NCBI GenBank assembly: GCA_014706385.1
Contig: JACGZH010000008.1
Location: forward strand, 868,001 to 932,000
Origin: Phaffia rhodozyma
Taxonomy: Eukaryota > Basidiomycota > Tremellomycetes > Cystofilobasidiales > Mrakiaceae
Reading direction: 5' to 3'
Length of the DNA stretch: 64,000 nt
In this document: positions 15,812 to 28,787 of the stretch, in pieces
Layout of the letters: every line of letters begins with the position of its first letter
How positions within the stretch are numbered: the stretch's first letter is position 1
Notes under the pieces: model-generated
Database searches by the model: none
What the model was told of the DNA's origin: nothing
Seen by the model: the letters and a program-made list of their open reading frames with translations, nothing else
Translations under genes and position numbers: made by a program

Positions 15812-17833
15812 ATGGCTCGGGAACCATCTCAAACAGATCCCATGCGGGCTTACAGAGCCGAGATGAACTCTCGTCGAAAGCTCGTCCTCGATAGTTATCT
15901 AATCCTCGGTTTCATCTCCTCCGGAACATACGGCCGGGTATACAAAGCTCGACTCAAGCCGGCTTTCAACTCGTTCGACCCAACATGCCCAACCAGACCT
16001 GGAGATAGAATAGGCAAAGAAGGGGAGCTCTATGCTATCAAGAAATTCAAACCAGACAAGGAAGGAGAGGTTGTGACGTATACTGGAATCAGTCAGAGTG
16101 CCATCAGAGAAATCGCGGTATGGTCTTTGTTGCCTTGCGAGTGAAAGAGGATGTCATAGCACTCACCATGCTTCTTCCTTGTTCTCTTCAGATCAATCGA
16201 GAAGTAGACCATGAGAACGTCGTGGCACTTCGAGAAGTCATCCTCCAAGATAAAAGTATCTTCATGGTCTTTGGCTATGCTGAACATGACTTTCTTGTAA
16301 GACTTCTCTCCCTCTTCTCCTTGATGCTTTCCCGAAGCTCACTTGTTTCACCCATCAATCTGGAACAACATCTGATACCATCTTATGGTCTGAAGCAAAT
16401 CATCCATCACCACTCTCAAACGCTGCGTTTGCCAGTTCCTCCTCCTACACTCAAGTCTCTTCTACATCAACTCCTTCTCGGCACGCTTTACCTACATACC
16501 CATCATATCCTCCATCGAGACCTCAAACCGGCTAACATCCTGGTTACCAACCAGGGTGTAGTCAAGATTGGTGATCTCGGTTTAGCCAGGGTCAGCAGAG
16601 ACCCACTCCAGCCACTCTGGCAAGGTGACAAGGTCGTAGTTACGATTTGGTACAGAAGTCCAGAACTTCTTTTGGGCGGACGACATTATACTGGCGCTAT
16701 CGGTTAGTTTTATTATCATATAACTTTCTTTCTTATTTCTTCAACAAAGCCAAAACATTAGAAGAAAGCTCTGATCGTCGGCAGGGGGATTCTTGTTGGA
16801 TTCTATCCACTAGATATGTGGGCAGTGGGATGCATCTATGCAGAGCTTTTGTCGTTGCGCCCGATCTTTAAAGGTGAGGAAGCAAAAATCGACAGCAAAA
16901 AACAACTGCCATTTCAGAAGGATCAGATGAGTAAGATCCTAGAGGTCTTAGGGAGCATCGACAGTAAGTTTTGCTGAGGCGTCCCGGTTCTTCTGTGTGA
17001 TTTCTCTCTTCGTGGAAAGATTAGCTAACGGTGTGTTGGTATCTTGATAGAGGAGAAATGGCCAAATTTACATCACTATCCAGAAACACCACATCTAGCT
17101 CGAATGGAACGGTCCGTTTCTCGTTTTTCAATGTCTCTGCCTGATTATTCTACCTATTCTCACTTGCCGTTACGCTCATCAACAGATATCACCCTGGACT
17201 AGCGCATTGGTACAAGACCAAATCTGGCCCATCCTTTTCACCCAAAGGATTTGACCTCCTCTCTTCGATGTTTGAGTTCGACCCAGAACGAAGAATAACT
17301 GCTAGGGAAGCACTCAAACATTCTTGGTTCTTAGACGACGGAGGCGTTAGCTCGAAGTACGTCTTTCCACCTGTTTCGTCTCGTCTGTTCGTTTTCCATC
17401 GACATTAATTCCCATTCCATCGTCTCGCTTATACGGAAAACACAGCGCGTTTGCTTCGTCTAACTTGGTCTATCCAGATCGTAGAGTGACACACGACAAC
17501 GAATTATCCTCTCAGCCCCTTCCTCCTTCACAAGCCCAGGGTCAAACATCGAACACAACAACAGCAAACAACCAAAACCGATCTATCCATCTTGCAGGTG
17601 ACCCGTCGAGAATACATAATTCATCAATCCCTCCACCTGCACCGCCTAGTGTGATCCCGATGCCTGTGTACCCAGCAAGCTCTAGACCAGGTAGTGGGAT
17701 GAGACCAGGGGTGGGAAGCGTAGGGCCTGGTGGAATCGGAAGTGCGGCTGGACCGGGAAGCGCAGGGAACAGTGCTGGCAGAATGGTTGGTAAAGCGGTA
17801 GATGGCAGTCGGAAAAAAAGTCGGATCATATAA
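15812..17833 (+). CDS. SSN3: Mediator cyclin-dependent kinase CDK8/SSN3
   Basis: The kinase of the Mediator CDK module (with cyclin C, Med12 and Med13), which phosphorylates transcription factors and the polymerase II tail. The start is ATG 15812. The glycine loop is [12 protein letters not shown]; the catalytic Lys lies in [12 protein letters not shown]; the PSTAIRE-equivalent helix is SQSAIREIA, the form typical of CDK8. The catalytic loop [11 protein letters not shown], the metal motif (DLGLAR in place of DFG, normal for this family) and [13 protein letters not shown] follow. The activation loop lacks the phosphorylatable Thr of cell-cycle CDKs. [19 protein letters not shown] continues the C lobe, then [17 protein letters not shown]. 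The C-terminal tail (about 17465-17833) is Pro/Gly/Ser-rich and ends KKSRII. At least six short introns. Confidence 0.94.
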
Positions 17834-18007: not shown

Positions 18008-21000
18008 TCATTCGTTCCTCGACAGACAACTTCGCAGTCCAGCAAGATACGTTTCAGATATAGCTGAAAAGTAATAGGAATGTTGAGCGTTATGAGGAGA
18101 GACAAGATTATGAGCAATTTCGTGCGCGAGTGTAAAGTACCTATGGTATATGAACATCGATTTGCATTTTTCAGTCAAGTCACAGTCAAAGCCTCAAAAA
18201 GACGAGTTGATACGGACCAAGATGTCAGGGCCTCATCGAGCTTTCCGTTTCGAACGAGATCAGCGTGCCAGGCGAGATAGTATCGCAAGTTCATAAACAC
18301 TTATCGTTTACAAGACCATAACAAAGATCGAATCAGACCAATAAGAAAACTTTAAGCATCGTCATGCTCATTCCATATTGAATCAGGAGAAGATTGATAG
18401 CTTACAAGAACCGCTTCGATTAAAGGCAATAAGAGGTCCAGATACGTCATGGAAAATGTGCTGAGAAGAACCATCAATCGACCCCATTGACGACAAACGT
18501 TAGCTCGGTAAGAGAACACATCGAGATTGAAAAAAGTATAAGAAGACTCACCAAAGACAAGGAGCTCATTTTGAAAACGTCTGAAAGTGGTAAAAGGACT
18601 CTTCCAGCGAACAATTCGATATCAACCTGGTGTCTCGCAAGAAGACCCTTTGGATTCTCCTCGCTCTTGTCGGCATAGAACTGAAGCTTAGACTTGTCAT
18701 CGTTTCCGACAAAGACAAGGTTTGTGTTCACGCCGGTCGTATCACAGAAATCTTTGGTCTCTTGAACAGGGACAGTCTGCTGTTTAGAAATAAGAGTGGA
18801 TGATCGGTTTCCTCGGGAGGCGTTGACAGCCTTCTCGACATTGGACCTACAGAGCCGAGTGTCAAAGAGATGTAGGATATGAATTGCAGAATCAGCAACA
18901 AATCAAACACCATGAATGCAAAAATGACAAACCGGATATCTTTTGTCGGTGTCACGATACTTGTCCGAGGTTCTGTTTGACCGATTTGCCTATGAACGGC
19001 GGGTATTGGAGTCGATACAGTTTCTTTGACCGAGGGCTTCTTCAGTCCGCTTTTGAAAGAACTGAAGAAGCCTTTGGGGCCAGAAGTCGAAGGAGATCGG
19101 GTGAGACCAGAAGAAGAAGATGGAGATTTCGATAACGAAGACTCGCTAGATGGGGATTGAACTTTAGAATGGGAATTTGTAGCTCGTTTAGGGTAAGATT
19201 TTTCCAAAAGCTCGTTTGTGGCATTGACAAGATGGTTCTCGGTCTGAGCGCGTAGCCTACGCTGAATTTCTAAGGGATCACAGTCAGGGAATAACTTCAA
19301 AGTAAAACGATGTCGCGTGAGATACAAACCACCTTTAACTAGAATCATAATGGATTGATGATAGATACCTCTTCTAATTCTACACCCATTGCTTTGAACT
19401 TTTGCTCCTCTTGAAGACGTAATTTCTCAGCCGACTCTTGAGCTAATCTCTCAATCTTCTTTTGTTTGAGAACCCGATCCGTCGCAAACCCTCTTCTGCG
19501 CTGTACATCCTCAAATCGATATAATCAGCCACATCAAAAAACAACATTGATGAAATACGTCGATGCATGAAAACGGCCTATACGTACCAAAGCCGATAAA
19601 GGTGTTGAAAGGATTGTCGAGAGTAGCAAGGCGTCCGTGGAGCGAGACTGAACAGGAAGGTGCTTGATGAGAGCCGACGCAACCTCGTATAGCTCAAGAT
19701 CTATACTTGAGGACACAGCCAACCGAATCTTACCCCCTCTATCCTCGGAAGCAGCAGCAGACACAGGCTCGATACTAGTCTTGACAATTGTGCCTATACG
19801 CAAAGTTCGTTTCAACTCTAATTTGTGTACTTCATAAACCTCTATGGAATTTCGAAGTGTCTCCGTCGTGATCGGATGCTGTTTCTCATGAAGGTAGATG
19901 GGAAGCCGTTCGAGAATAAGATGGTTCGTTTGATAGGCGAGTTTGGATTGAGAGTTGACAGCTCCAGTAGCACTGTAGTCCTCTACAAATAAACGGAATG
20001 GAATCAGTATGATGACAACGAAAGCTTATACCAGCCATATGCGATATGCCTGATGTTGAGCTTACCTTTTACCTGTCTGCTTAGCTTCATAGAGCCAAGT
20101 TTCAAATAGAATCTAACATCACCAACTTAGTGATCTTCTGATCCAATCCCTTCATATGCAGAGATACACTTACTCTTCGAGAGCGGGCTCTTCAGGAGCT
20201 GCCAATATAGATTCTTGGAAAATCAAGTGGATCACTGGATCATCGAGGATCATAATCTCTCGGGGGTACGCTAACGTCCAAATGTTTTCTGAAGAAACAA
20301 GATAGCCAATCGGGGCAACAAGTTAGTAGATCAGACTATACTCGGACGCATGCGCAGGTTGAGGGTCGAAACAGCATACCGTATTCCTCGTCATCTTCAG
20401 CCTTTGAAGCAAGTTTGACACGCTTGAAACCGAGAAGTACTTGATTTTCTCCCATCGATCGCAAAACACTATTGGGGAGATTAGATATACTTAAATTCCT
20501 CAAAACGTCGAGGTACCTATGAATAGATTCAAACAAATCGATGAGAGCTGTGTTTGTATGCAGAACGTTTCCTGGACTTACAATTCAGGAGTGCCAGCCA
20601 GGTCTAATACAACGCGGGGGCTGAAAATGGACGATACAGCCGTCGTTAACATAACGAGAAGAAGGCTAAGCAGTTAGATTGTCTTACTCTTTGATAACCA
20701 TCTTGGCGACTTCTGTAGGACTTGGTTCAGCTTGTACCCCGATAGCTCGTAGAAATGTGTTTCCTTTAGCGCCAAAGTCAACGTAGACAAATCTAAAGAA
20801 AATACCAGGTTGAAGGTCAGTGATATGAACGAGTAGTAGCGATGCCATGCCTTACGCACAGAGCTTTGTACATTGATGAGCTGCTCGCGTCATGATTGAC
20901 GAAGTAGACTTCACTGTTTTCATAAATGAGAGAACGACAATGAGACGGAGAGATCCGAGACTACCAAATAGACTGACAAAGGAGATTCATACTTTGAACG

Positions 21001-24000
21001 ATGAAGCTTAATGCTTCCGGTCTTATGAGCAGGGATGAACGGCACCGTGTTGAGCCTCTTTAACGACACATGATCAAACGTGGACAGTCTTGAGGCCAGA
21101 TACTGCAAATAACACAATAGTTGTCTAATAAGCTTCACACATGGTCAAATTAATCACTCAGATACACATACTTCAAATATCTCTTGAGCATGAGTAACAT
21201 TCTGAGGAGCTTTGCTGATGAGTGCATCAACCAGCGCAGAGGCTATGGTTTGTCGTTGAAGTCAGAAACAGATGGATTGGAGAAGAGAGCGGTAGTAGGG
21301 AAATATAGAGTCGTATCAGTAAATCGATGCACCATAGTATATCGTGGTGCAAGACACGAACCTTTAGGATCCATGTCAACTAAGAGCGGAAGGACTGGTA
21401 CCTCTCGGATGGAGCTTGCTACAACTGAAAAGCCTAGAAGTTTGGCATCCAGATTTCGGTAGACGTCCAAGGGAGAGCCTAGAAATGCAGATCCATCCTG
21501 CTTGATACAAGGAATGAATGCGAGTTTCCGGTTTTCAGATGCGGGATCTAGCAAATCGAAGTTGAGAAAAATGTAAACAGTCAAATATTTCATTATAATG
21601 TGTCAGATATATGCTTGAAATACAGAGACTTCGAGAAAAGAACTCACAAGTTTGCGCATAGTACTTCGTAAAGTTCTCAAATAGAAACTCAAGAGCTACA
21701 GTTCGAACGGAATTAACAGAACCAGCGGCTAGAGGCAAAAGAGTGTCGATGGATGGGTACCTCATCAATCCAAGAGAGAATAAAAATTTGGCTAGTTTGT
21801 GATCACAAAAATCGACACTGTGAGCTCTAATTCCAGATTGCTTCTAGCAGAAGTGTGGAAGACGCTCACCCTCATCTGAATTCGATCTCCACTTAGCTTT
21901 CCAATCTAAGATAGGAAGGCCGAGCTTCCGAAGCGAATCTGATGGTTCGTATATCTGTCTAGGTAAGAATCTCGAGGTAGAACCTTCGACGGGAAATGCA
22001 GCCGTATTTTTCAACCGGTTGATCTCAGCTGGGCGGAGATTTTCTTGGACAGAGACCAGGTATTTCGTCACTGTTGGAGATTCTCTTGAAATGATATCAG
22101 TGCATCTCCTAGAGATAGCTTGATCAAGTTTGGTCACTGACAGTCCATCACACTCCATCCACCTGCGCCTAGAAGCCTGCTGAAGACCAACTGAAGTTCA
22201 ACATGTTTTCGAACCCCCAAAGCCATCAATAGCTTTTCCATGTTTCCCTTTAACGAAGATCCTTTCGGGAAAGCAATAATTCTTTTAAGCCGGTTCCGAA
22301 ACCCATTTAGTTTCTGCGTTTCGTTGTGGCGAAGGAGTATACAGGAAAGGCTTACGGGAGATCCGGGAAGAGGCTGACATTTGGAAAGTAAGCCTCTCCA
22401 GGAGAAACCTGTTCTTCCAACGAAAGATGTAAAGATACATCATGGAGTGATCATCAACTTTGTATGTGAAGTAGAATAGTGAAGTCGACTGTGCAGTGGG
22501 AAACAGGAACTTACCATCCCAGATTTAGAAGGTATGATCTTCTTTCCTGACAATAGTCCAAATATTTTTGCCTGAGTCTGCGCGTTTGCACTTGTCCAAG
22601 CTCTGGCGACAATTCCCAGAACCCTCTCCGCGAAAGTAGCTGAGACTTCCATATCCAACTCTGGATCATCTTTTGCCCGTTCTAAAAGGTTTTCTAACCA
22701 GACCGGGAGAGAAATCTCCTGTAAGCCAAGAGCGAAGGGAATACGCTGTATATCAAGTTGTTTTGAAATAGCTGGGGGAAGCATATCCAATGGGAAGGGG
22801 AGATCGGATGGAATGACCGAGCGAGGTTGATGAAACGTCCGCATGGAAGATAATTGAGCTATCTCTGGCTCTCCTGTCTTCTTCGATTCAACGTTTTGAT
22901 GGGGCCGAATGGTGAATATAGCGTAATCGAGAATTTTGGACCTGAGCGACTTGTCATATTCCGGGGCTTGACTAAGTTCGATCCACCATTTGAGGCAATC
23001 CACCATTTCTTCTTCTGTCAACAATCTACTCTTTAACTCGCCTGCGATATCGTCTAACGACATATCTTTAAGCATTCCTCTCGTTTTCAAACGAGTCACC
23101 ATTGATGAAGCACCGTCCAGGACTGGTGACGGTACAACAGGAACCTTGCGGATGAAATTTGTAGTGGCAGCATGAGGCATCCTGACCTCAAGCATTGCAT
23201 CAGCAACGCCTTGCGTAGATATTATGTGGAAAGGTCTCGACCTGCCAGAGCATGCAAAGAACGCGGCCTCCATATGACGAGACACGACGCCCGATGGTGT
23301 CGAGGAGAGGAAAGTGAAAAAACGTAATGCATGAAGTGCTCGGGAGGTGAGGACTTCTTGGAATTGAGGGGATGGAGAGTCAGTCAGAGATGGGCCCTTC
23401 CATAACGAGCGGATCTCGGAAAGCTCTGTTTCGTAGACTGCACGGCACAGAAATCCTATCATTGCCCAAAATGATACATCAGCTATGTAATCGATCCTCG
23501 AGATGAATCAGGATCCTTAACACATATATGAACAGTACCTGCAACGTATAACAGCTGTACGAGCCGATCAAGAGACAAAAACGCCATAAGTTCGTTTCAA
23601 ATATTATAATATATTGCGCATTGAGATAGATGTTGACTAAAGACATACCTCCTTGTTCCATTGGCTGACATATCGATCTACCAAGTCGATGCTTTCTCTT
23701 TCTACAGTGGGTATGAATCTACCAGCTGATGATGTCTCCATGGTGAGTGTTATCAGCAGTGAAGGCTTCATATGTATGAACATATATTTGACCTACATAT
23801 ATGACCCCCAATTCCTGTCGTCTGTCCTGTGGCGTGTCCAATGAAAATCTTTGCGAGTCCTTGTCTGGTGTTATCAAGAAATGCAAGTTGTTAAACAGTA
23901 ACTTCCAAGTTTGATAAGTGAAACGAGCAAGAATGGTCGATGAGAACAAACATACCCTTCTAAATCCGCTCGGAGCCCTCTGAAGATGCTGTTTTCCCCC

Positions 24001-25651
24001 GTACCTTCTTTCTCGTTCTCCCCCTCTTTCTCGGCCGCATCCCATTCGTCTTTACTCGTCCATACCAACACAACTTTAGTCCTGCTTGGTGGCTGCTTCT
24101 TCATTGCGCGTTCCATCTCTTTTCCGAAAGCCTGTGAGATTCCGACTTTGGCGTCAGCAGCGATGAGGTTGAGTTCTAATCCAGTTTCTATCAACTCGAA
24201 TGGATCCTTAGGTTTTGCAATAGAGGGCGGAGGTAGAGCAACGGGTACGGGAGAAGATCGACCGAACAAGGCCGACGATAGCATCGACGTAAATGAAGTC
24301 GTAGGAGCTGCTGAAGGTGGTTTGAGAAGTTTCGGAAGAGACCTTAGAGGGGGAGTCGCACTATTGTATATCGCTCGAGGAACCTTCGCAGTGATCTTGA
24401 TGGCTGCAAATAAGAGTAGTGAGGTTAAGAAACGCTTGAATGCCCTTTGGAGTGAACAAGAAGGAGGGTGGATCATAACGAACAAGTGCTAGCTAACTCG
24501 TCAACAGTCATCATTCCTCCTTCACTCTTTCTCCCCAACCCGACAGGGACCTCCATCAACTTTGAGGCTCTCACATCCTTCTCGATCAACGCTGCTCTCA
24601 TATCGTCGAAGAAAAGCTCGGCTCGCTTGATTTGGACCATAAATGTGATGCTTGTTGCCAAGAATCTGGCTAGATCCAGGAGTGAGTTTTCCATCGGTGC
24701 GGGTGTACGAAGGTCAAGCGTAAATGTTGTCCACGGCTGATTGAAATAAGAAACAGAAGGATTTGAAGAAGGAGGAAGGGAACCTGCTCTCGCAAACAGC
24801 TGTATTTTAAGGACGAACAGAAACCAGTGCGTTGAACATAACAAAGATCCAATTTGGAGAGTCAAGAAGTCACATACCTGATCGCCGCCACCTTTCCAAT
24901 GAAAGCCCATCCATGTTCCATTACTCTCGACGTGAGGCTCCTCAGTGATCGAAAACAACGCATAGAATCCAACACCATATGCCCCGATCTTGATCGAGTC
25001 GTTATTTCCGTCGGCAATCTTTTTGAGTCGACTCCAGTCTTCTGGCCGGAAAGGTATCTAGGATATCGATTCGATGATAGGGGAATGTTTAGTAAGCTTT
25101 CAAATCCTGAGGAACAAGTAAGTTTGTAGACTGAACATACCCCATCATTTCGGAACTCTATTCTCACAACCTAAGAATCACTCCAATACTTGTCAATATT
25201 GAATCATTGTCCTCGCGGTCAAGAAGGATTGTACCAACAGGATCATCCTTGAAGTTCGGAGGAGTCCCGTCTGTATCTTGCTCCTTGTCATCAACCACCT
25301 GATTTGACTCTGTTGGATCTTGCTTAAGCCGAGCTCTCTCACGGTCAAGCCCCTTTTGAGTGAAAAACTTGATTTGAACCGAAGAAGCCTCTGCATCGTC
25401 TGCATTCTGCAGCAGCTCTCTTCATTAAGAGCAACAATATATAAGGGCCAACACGATCCCAAATCAGTTCTGACTGAAATCTAGAGAATGATAGGAGGGT
25501 AGCGAACTATGGAAATAGATTTGTAGAAAGGAACTCGCCTGAAGATCGTGTGTTCTCCACTGTAACGAGCAAGCACCTTATCGATCAACGCTCTCTGGTT
25601 CACACTAACAGCTTCATCTTGACCCGAGTCCCACAAATTCTTTCTATCCAT
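18008..25651 (-). CDS. Giant sacsin-like GHKL-ATPase / DUF3684 protein with C-terminal HExxH motif
   Basis: A very large fungal protein (my estimate 1,600-1,700 residues) split by many introns. The start at 25651 gives MDRKNLWDSGQDEAVSVNQR. The N-terminal Bergerat/GHKL fold shows the N-box FRELLQNADDAEASSVQIKF, the G1 element FRNDG-IPF and the G2 element KIGAYGVGFYALFSITEE, as in sacsin and Hsp90. Next come WTTFTLDLRTPAPMENSLLD and helical regions of the DUF3684 type. The last exons give GSLFMNLRYYLAWHADLV and, after a final intron, YFTLAHEIAHNLVSPHNAQH followed by SYYFSAISETYLAGLRSC and TGA at 18008-18010. HEIAH (18110-18124) fits the zinc-metallopeptidase HExxH pattern. The first intron (25420-25538) appears to use a GC donor. 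Function is not established; chaperone-like is inferred from the ATPase fold. Middle joins are approximate. Confidence 0.85.
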
Positions 25652-26049: not shown

Positions 26050-28787
26050 TCAACCGCCCATCTCGATTTCTGTCTTTTCGTCTGGCCGCTCACTAAGACT
26101 TCCAACCCTGCTTCGTTTCCCTATCACCCCATCCTCTCCCTCATCCTCCGCACCCATGCTTTTGGACTCGTCTCCTTCTGAATCCTCGATCTCTGTTCTC
26201 TTTCTTCCTACACTCGAGCCGTCCAGCCACCCATCAGGCCCTGAAACTCCTCTGGACGTCGCTCTCGCTCTCACAGGCGTTGAAGCGCCAGATTTTAAAG
26301 GTGAACGATAGCCACTTCTTGTGTCCGTCCCTTCTGGTAATAAGTCTTCCGGACTAGAGCGCGAGAACGGACTAAGCTCTAAAGAAAGGTCTTGAGGGTG
26401 AGGCTCGAGAAGGGCTTGACCTCGATTCGCTTGTTGGCGTTGTGGACCCAAGATCCGAAGTCTTTCGATCCAACTATACAGGTGATTTGAACGAAAATTC
26501 AGTCTCTTATAAGCAAGTGAAGACAAAGATGGCAAATAGACGAACGCTTCGGCCCTTTCTAAACTTTCACCAAATACCTGAGCAAGACCTGTGATCATAT
26601 CCAGACTTTCCACTGCTAATGTCATAACCCTGCCAGCCGCACCCCTTGCCATCCCAACTTGTACTCCCGGCACCCCTGCTTCTAGCTCACCAGACTGACC
26701 ACTCTCTCTGTTAAGTCGCTCGTTCGCCCTTTCCCAACGTTCCGGTAAGCCAAGGATGAATCTTCGAACGGTCCGTCGGGCAGGTTCTGGTAAGGCTCCA
26801 CCAGCGTATTTTGATACGACATCAACGACCTTGCGGATGGTGTTTACCACGTCAGCTTTAATCTTGGAAAGAGACTCCAAGGCCGAAGGAGAGATCAAAG
26901 CTTGAGATGAAGCCGAGGAGTCATTTAAGGATGCGATGAAGTTTCGAAGGATGCTAATCTGGTTGGTTATATGCGATGTCGCGTACTGTTTGTTTCGAAT
27001 TGCGCAAGTCGGAGTGATCAGAAAATGAGCCTATGGAAAAATAGAGGAGAAAGAAAAAGGAATAGGTGAAGATGATAAAAAAAGCCTACTTGTAGCCACT
27101 GCAGACAATACGTCAAACTCTTCATGCTCTCTTCGCTTACCGCCGCTCCTATTCCTCCAGCAGTCATACCTGCCTCGACAAGCATCGAAGACCATCGCCC
27201 AGTGTTTCCTCCAGTCGTTCGTTCTACCTCTTTCGTCTCCGATGGAACATGGACGAGCGCTTGGCCTGGTTGAGAAGTCGGTCTTACCCGAGATTGAGAA
27301 CGCGAAGTTGAACGATGAAGAAGTGGGAAAGAGGATGAACCTAAAATAGATGTATATCATATAAATGATCAGAACGGAATAAGAGGATTGCTGAATAGGT
27401 GACTCCTAGATGTTCATAACCTCACCCTGAGCTTGAGGATCTTCCTCTCGTTTCACTCTGTTCTCTAGACCAGGACTATCTCTGGAGCTCATATGATCGC
27501 TTCCGCTTAAGGAGGATGATCTTATTGAGCTCGTCGCTGTCGAGGTTGACCTATATCTTTCTTCAATATTGGTTGGCGGCAAGGAAGACGATCCAGGTGT
27601 TGATAGCTTCATATCGTCAGCACAAAAACGATGGTCCAACGCAAAAGTGGTTAAAAAGTAAGAAATTTAGAGGCAAAGTCAAGGAAGCGAAGAGATATAA
27701 ACACAAAGACCAACTCCAACTCGATCAAGAGTCCGACAGCCCCAATCATCCATTGCACCCGTCAGTCTAGGATCTATTCGATCCATGACCGGTCTTGAGA
27801 TTGTCTTGACCGAAGACTCGACAATTTCTGCTCCATACTGCAAAGCAAATCGGATGAAGATACTTTGTCAACCAACGATATTCAAACAAAGAACGAATGG
27901 CAAAACATACTTTGACAACTCGGGATCCTCCTTTGGCTGTTTCATAAGCTTTTAACGCAGTGTTGACAACAGGCATCATCGATACTCTAGATACGAAGTC
28001 GGCCTCATTCTGGGATGGTCTGGTAAACTCATCAAATTGGTTGATCGATAAATAGGAACATTCAGAAACATTGTCAGTCAAGGGATCGTCGAAACAAGAA
28101 AGAGACCCATACGACGAACATGTTAGAAGGAGAAGGTCCGAGATCTAAAGGGTTCGAGTAGACCGAGGACGCCAGAGAGGGAGTTGTCGCCACGGTTGAT
28201 GAAGGAGTCAAGGATGGACCTGAATCAGTGAGGGCATCTGTGAGTGAAGATGAACGATGGAATCAATATATGTGTAACTTATAAGCAATTGAATAGAGGT
28301 GATGATGATATAACGAAGGGAGATCAAAGCATCGACAGAGAGAACCAAAGGACCTCATGGTATCTTGAGGGACGATGGATTGACGAGTATCCCTTCTTGA
28401 GCACTTGTGCTCGAGTTTGCCGGACACCCAGCCGGATAGATCCGTATAAGTGAACCCATGGTGGAGTGGAAGCTCTTTCTATCCTGGTCAATATTCCTTT
28501 CCCGTCCAACTCTCTCTGTTTACTGAATGCACTGCCCTGTTCGATACGAAACGAATGATCTTACCATGTCCGAAACTAGAGTCGGTATGGATAGAAGAAG
28601 CAAGTGACATAGCGGACTCCCCACAGACCGTACTGTTGCTGCTACTGTCACTGTGTTCGGCTACCGGCCGCGGCGGCCCGGTGGGCGATTTAGATGCCAT
28701 CATGTGTAGAGCTGTGATGGCGATGAGTTCGTCTTGATCCCTAGGTGGCCAAATTGGAGGATCTGGTTGTGTAGATGAGCCCTTCAT
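26050..28787 (-). CDS. OPI1: OPI1-like transcriptional repressor of phospholipid synthesis
   Basis: In yeast Opi1 senses phosphatidic acid at the ER and, when released, enters the nucleus to repress inositol/choline-responsive genes with Sin3. The start at 28787 gives MKGSSTQPDPPIWPPRDQDE and then LIAITALHMMASKSP, the N-terminal AID-like helix. The core Opi1 domain is in later exons: EADFVSRVSMMPVVNTALKA, YETAKGGSRVVKYGAEIVES, SVKTISRPVMDRIDPRL, then DVVSKYAGGALPEPARRTVR and RFILGLPERWERANERLNRE. AGRVMTLAVESLDMITGLAQ and SLERAEAFVYLPSL follow. The C-terminal exon is Ser/Asp/Glu-rich (EIEDSEGDESKSMGAEDEGE) and ends EIEMGG at 26050. No FFAT motif was spotted. It is divergent from the SDR gene, with only 190 bases between the two start codons. 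Confidence 0.88.

Follow-up and report, generated by a model that had tools for sequence, protein, structure and literature searches.

The window, a 64,000-nucleotide stretch of a Phaffia rhodozyma contig (JACGZH010000008.1, positions 868,001 to 932,000 of the forward strand), harbors on its reverse strand a multi-exon DUF3684 gene whose features are collected in Table 1. The gene starts with an ATG codon at 25651 and terminates with a TGA codon at 18010-18008, limits that match those first noted for it (25651..18008) exactly. Spliced alignment revealed that the product is identical, without gaps, to the C-terminal part of the deposited P. rhodozyma protein P0001 (100% identity), which was the best homologue in the first of two homologue searches and bears the name transcription factor Opi1. 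Relative to the 1,741-residue model, P0001 possesses 628 extra N-terminal residues with an Opi1 domain; since none of the remaining homologues that the first search listed has this domain, the joining of the Opi1 gene to the DUF3684 gene in P0001 is probably a gene-model fusion error. The upstream Opi1 gene, located at 26050-27030 on the reverse strand, is merged in P0001 with the DUF3684 gene starting at 25651. On the forward strand, a convergent gene at 17145-17833 looks like the C-terminal portion of a protein kinase with a low-complexity tail behind it. All 11 DUF3684 matches in the complete Phaffia genome (19.8 Mb, 15 contigs) fall in the gene described here.

Table 1. Position of the DUF3684 gene and of its main features in the window.
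Feature	Position	Strand	Description
Whole gene	18008..25651	(-)	30 exons, 1741 aa; sacsin-type ATPase, DUF3684, linker and C-terminal zincin
N-box E39 L40 L41 Q42 N43 A44 D45 D46, start of exon 2	25395..25419	(-)	Predicted catalytic Glu, ATP-site Asn and Asp
N106-D107-G108, adenine-side motif	25141..25149	(-)	N106 in 111/112 rows, G108 in 111/112
KIGAYGVGF glycine loop (G133, G136, G138, F139)	24965..24991	(-)	Conserved in 110-112 of 112 rows
IPTVERESID loop with R455 (23699..23697)	23685..23714	(-)	Residues 450-456 and 459 in 112/112 rows
Second HExxH (HEKQH, residues 1289-1293)	19876..19890	(-)	Internal negative control, not conserved
C-terminal zincin domain, residues ~1549-1741, exons 26-30	18011..18949	(-)	Based on AlphaFold models of homologues P0129 and P0244
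C1588-D1589	18741..18746	(-)	Invariant (112/112); candidate cysteine switch in low-confidence loop
N1666 in IAFNR	18419..18421	(-)	112/112; at the place of ScWss1 Asn83
Last intron	18141..18217	(-)	Retention stops the frame at 18175, with loss of the active site
HEIAH	18110..18124	(-)	Candidate zinc ligands H1704 and H1708, catalytic E1705; 112/112 each
H1714, candidate third zinc ligand (HExxHx5H)	18092..18094	(-)	112/112
H1718, further near-invariant His	18080..18082	(-)	111/112

In a Pfam scan of a 1,637-residue draft of the protein, the SACS model (PF25794) matched residues 22-135 well above its cut-off (59.1 vs 32.8 bits, E 7e-16) and DUF3684 (PF12449) matched residues 199-1242 (893.3 bits vs a gathering cut-off of 27, E 3e-268). 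The NCBIfam sacsin domain model NF047352 was also above its cut-off (52.5 vs 50), and the general HATPase_c models stayed below theirs (15.6 vs 26.4 bits). The Pfam scan placed a weak WLM match (E 0.18) precisely over the HExxH, and matched none of the DnaJ, HEPN and ubiquitin-like domains. The window protein is therefore a member of PF12449, a family whose Pfam model leaves the zincin outside; the zincin tail has already been touched by machine annotation, as one 111-residue tail fragment (P0287) is labelled 'WLM domain-containing protein' in UniRef.

Conservation was assessed in an alignment of 112 rows, consisting of the long sequences from both homologue searches (65 rows from the first and 47 from the second). 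The N-terminal head carries the elements FRELLQNADDA (residues 37-47), FRNDG (104-108) and KIGAYGVGFYALFSI (131-145), and the best solved relative of its first 497 residues by sequence is sacsin (5v44, E 2.9e-7). In the N-box, E39, N43 and D46 are conserved in 109, 110 and 110 of the 112 rows, respectively; together with A47, N106, F111, G133, G136, G138 and F139, each likewise kept in 109-112 rows, they are counterparts of residues for which ATP binding has been reported in sacsin. Among the latter are E116, N120 and D123 (PMC9880540, Table 1), and sacsin N160 stands where Hsp90 has Asp79, although the same source describes the binding and use of ATP by sacsin itself as debated (PMC9880540). 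The window protein shares with sacsin these ATP-site residues, including the Asn in place of Hsp90 Asp79, and by analogy its R455 is a candidate equivalent of the middle-domain catalytic Arg (Hsp90 R380, sacsin R474). It differs in architecture, in that sacsin contains three ATPase units, whereas one was matched here, with a zincin added at the C-terminus. H444 and the IPTVERE loop (within 23803-23685, reverse strand, across an intron) are invariant in all 112 rows, and no histidine other than H444 is fully conserved outside the zincin.

At the opposite end of the protein, AHEIAHNLVSPHNAQH contains H1704, E1705, H1708, H1714 and H1718. The original prediction had combined the ATPase head and an HExxH motif in one protein, and a single spliced gene indeed encodes both in one frame; the HEIAH was located at the expected place (18124..18110) and is followed by the two additional histidines mentioned, H1714 and H1718, whereas the distance between head and motif, given as about 1,500 residues, amounts to about 1,665. 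In the alignment, H1704, E1705, H1708, N1709 and H1714 are invariant (112/112), an outcome that favors the original prediction, which had named invariance of the two His, the Glu and a third ligand as a check. According to the description of the tool, the first search was seeded with words from the first 500 residues, so that the C-terminal motif was not asked for by word, and scored whole proteins; of 7993 candidates scored, 1866 matched and 120 were listed. HExxHN(4)H is present in 118 of these, while P0011 and P0110 end before the motif. The second search, run with a partly invented ascomycete-like C-terminal sequence, found 336 proteins, and the motif was present in all 120 listed, a count biased by the probe, which itself contains the motif. 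The other HExxH of the protein is kept by 41 of the 65 first-search rows and by 1 of the 47 second-search rows, vs 65/65 and 47/47 for the C-terminal site.

At the composition of this protein, 0.045 HExxH and 0.0009 HExxHx5H motifs are expected by chance; given this figure and the near-universal conservation, a fortuitous HExxH, which the original prediction had allowed for, is very unlikely. The same applies to the idea of a chance motif in a mis-spliced tail: a gene model based on codon use only does slightly favor an end before the last exon, with the stop at 18175 (161.24 vs 161.00), but the in-frame conservation among the listed homologues, the low chance expectation and the identical deposited protein leave this explanation with hardly any credit, and conservation refutes it. 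The evidence behind the last exon consists of its conservation and of the deposited gene model. The homologue P0110 diverges just past the tryptophan where the last intron sits in the window gene, as if reading into the intron, and retention of this intron, with a stop at 18175, could be alternative splicing.

The fold of the C-terminal domain was examined in AlphaFold models of the homologues P0129 and P0244 (for the latter, pLDDT 91.1 and pTM 0.86). Both are predicted to adopt a zincin fold, in agreement with the original proposal of a metallopeptidase-like site, and their closest solved relatives by VIA-align are Wss1 structures, with structural Z values below 8, which according to the tool may reflect merely a common arrangement. 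The best Foldseek match had an E value of 0.009, and none reached 0.001. At the level of sequence, the WLM model (PF08325) fell below its gathering cut-off for the window domain (15.4 vs 26 bits, E 0.02) and matched 16 of 23 family members at E<=10 (best E 0.0027), while Reprolysin_5, a metzincin model, matched six of these 23 members with a best E value (0.0016) as good as that of WLM and was also below cut-off on the window domain (13 vs 27 bits, E 0.12). Comparison of the domain profile with PDB sequences yielded 16 weak matches (best E 0.083), which to judge by their names are metalloproteinases of the snake-venom/ADAM kind and an O-glycan protease, and Wss1 was absent from these 16. At E<=1, a genome-wide search of Phaffia with the WLM model gave three matches, namely two exons of a Wss1-like gene on contig 8 and the zincin exon (E 0.25); at the same threshold it also matched, below cut-off, 4 of 14 control genomes, so that a weak WLM match alone proves little.

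Beyond the active-site stretch, no sequence signal to Wss1 was detected, as 98 of 100 shuffles keeping this stretch scored equally high. Metzincins have the motif HExxHxxGxxH/D, in which the third residue following HExxH is a Gly. With those of the reprolysin/ADAM type the window domain shares an HExxHx5H-type spacing and weak profile matches, but this Gly is missing in all 112 rows, position 1711 being V in 102, E in seven, I in two and S in one. In M1-type gluzincins, the third ligand is a distal Glu in a second helix; here an invariant His (H1714) is available as a candidate for this role. Considering the missed WLM cut-off, the equally good best E value of Reprolysin_5, the PDB profile matches without Wss1, the likeness to Wss1 confined to the active site and the absence of the metzincin Gly, the domain is most likely a zincin with a Wss1-like fold that represents a separate branch and not a member of the WLM family.

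Inactive zincins usually lose the catalytic Glu, and the invariance of E1705, judged from sequence, argues for an active enzyme. A genuine zincin fold with a purely structural or regulatory role, in which zinc merely stabilizes the domain and the protein acts as a chaperone alone, would be compatible with the fact that neither a report of activity nor any paper naming DUF3684 was found in the literature searched, but the retention of this Glu in 112/112 rows makes such a role distinctly improbable. The HExxHx5H spacing with three His ligands is the same as in ScWss1 (H115/H119/H125), and both proteins have an Asn on the preceding strand, N1666 being paired with Asn83 by eye, a pairing that recurs when an hhalign alignment is forced, though with low confidence. 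Asn-83 is described as lining the zinc site of ScWss1 (PMC5557861). Among the Cys columns, C1588 alone is kept throughout the 112 rows (the next best reaches 98); it sits 116 residues ahead of H1704, in a stretch poorly modelled in P0129. Wss1 is reportedly latent and opened by thiol reagents, its regulatory cysteine being thought to be the C-terminal C226 (PMC4559962). As C1588 is instead N-terminal to the active site, a cysteine switch at this residue is a guess by analogy, with a placement different from that in Wss1.

Several known proteases operate with an ATPase. Wss1, a WLM metalloprotease (MEROPS M80), recruits Cdc48, whereas the window zincin is fused to an ATPase of its own. SPRTN works beside the ATPase p97, and the arrangement of a mini-zincin alongside an ATPase is common to the SprT-like proteases and the window protein; the former, however, are encoded by a separate gene in the Phaffia genome and are not among the PDB matches listed. 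The AAA+ proteases FtsH, Lon and ClpXP likewise combine an ATPase with a protease in a single machine, and FtsH also uses HExxH, but the predicted motor of the window protein is of the GHKL/Hsp90 type. By VIA-align the nearest structural relative is Wss1, which works with an ATPase (PMC4559962), and the window protein might accordingly be imagined as a protease of the Wss1/SPRTN kind that clears DNA-crosslinked proteins, its sacsin-type head replacing Cdc48/p97. The Phaffia genome, however, already contains a canonical Wss1-like gene (contig 8:1382051-1382376) and a SprT-like gene (contig 9:1803821-1803952), to both of which the window zincin is additional, and this DNA-linked role is considered quite unlikely.

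The zincin is preceded by a long linker (about residues 1441-1548) with a mean modal identity of 0.157, vs 0.585 for the C-terminal domain core (1644-1741) and 0.611 for ATPase residues 20-160; in the P0129 model, pLDDT is below 50 over most of the matching stretch. Such a linker would suit an active zinc peptidase engaged mainly in self-processing, where one cut in the linker or elsewhere in its own chain frees or switches off the chaperone and clients are not degraded. Activated Wss1 is indeed reported to cleave itself, but also to cut associated proteins (PMC4559962), and self-processing as the main role appears unlikely.

The best explanation of these data, and one we regard as reasonably probable, is an ATP-regulated chaperone and protease in a single chain. 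The original prediction, a chaperone driven by ATP and linked to a protease of its own, gains partial support from the conserved active-site residues of both head and tail and from the zincin fold predicted in homologues; proteolysis, ATP hydrolysis, client binding, latency and coupling are what we infer from them, as the best reading and not as a result. In this chaperone-protease, the sacsin-type N-terminal domain would bind ATP and cycle in the manner of Hsp90 and sacsin with the help of the middle-domain R455, its cycling opening and closing a clamp over client proteins held by the DUF3684 body. The long disordered linker would tether a compact Wss1-like zinc peptidase, which would cut clients that the chaperone cannot release. 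The peptidase would probably be latent, perhaps through coordination of C1588 to the zinc (a cysteine switch), and could be unlocked by the ATPase cycle, by client binding or by thiol stress. The partnership of Wss1 with the ATPase Cdc48 (PMC4559962) offers a two-part analogue, both parts of which the window protein would hold in one chain. Since this reading depends on the zincin fold, whether or not the domain belongs to WLM, its standing is unaffected by the Reprolysin and control-genome results.

In the literature searched, no paper combining sacsin with a zinc metallopeptidase or with a WLM domain was found. To our knowledge, the combination of a sacsin-type ATPase with a zincin has not been described, its parts being of known kinds and the family being already listed by Pfam among the domains without assigned function; all ATP-dependent proteases known to us use AAA+ motors. 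One Tulasnella gene owes its annotation to its resemblance to a 'Sacsin' of Psilocybe (PMC11503967). A more far-reaching version, advanced tentatively and with the balance against it, is that of an energy-dependent protease with an Hsp90/sacsin-type (GHKL) motor in place of an AAA+ one, widespread in Dikarya, in which the chaperone would decide, inside a single molecule, whether a client is folded or cut and whose protease would be locked by a cysteine switch sensing thiol stress. The family occurs in two large fungal groups and, if the chaperone-protease reading is true, a sacsin/Hsp90-class ATPase with its own peptidase would represent a second design for protein quality control. Loss of sacsin leads to ataxia in humans by a mechanism described as still unclear, and a single-unit fungal relative whose enzymatic activity can be measured would open the ATP cycle of sacsin to direct tests.
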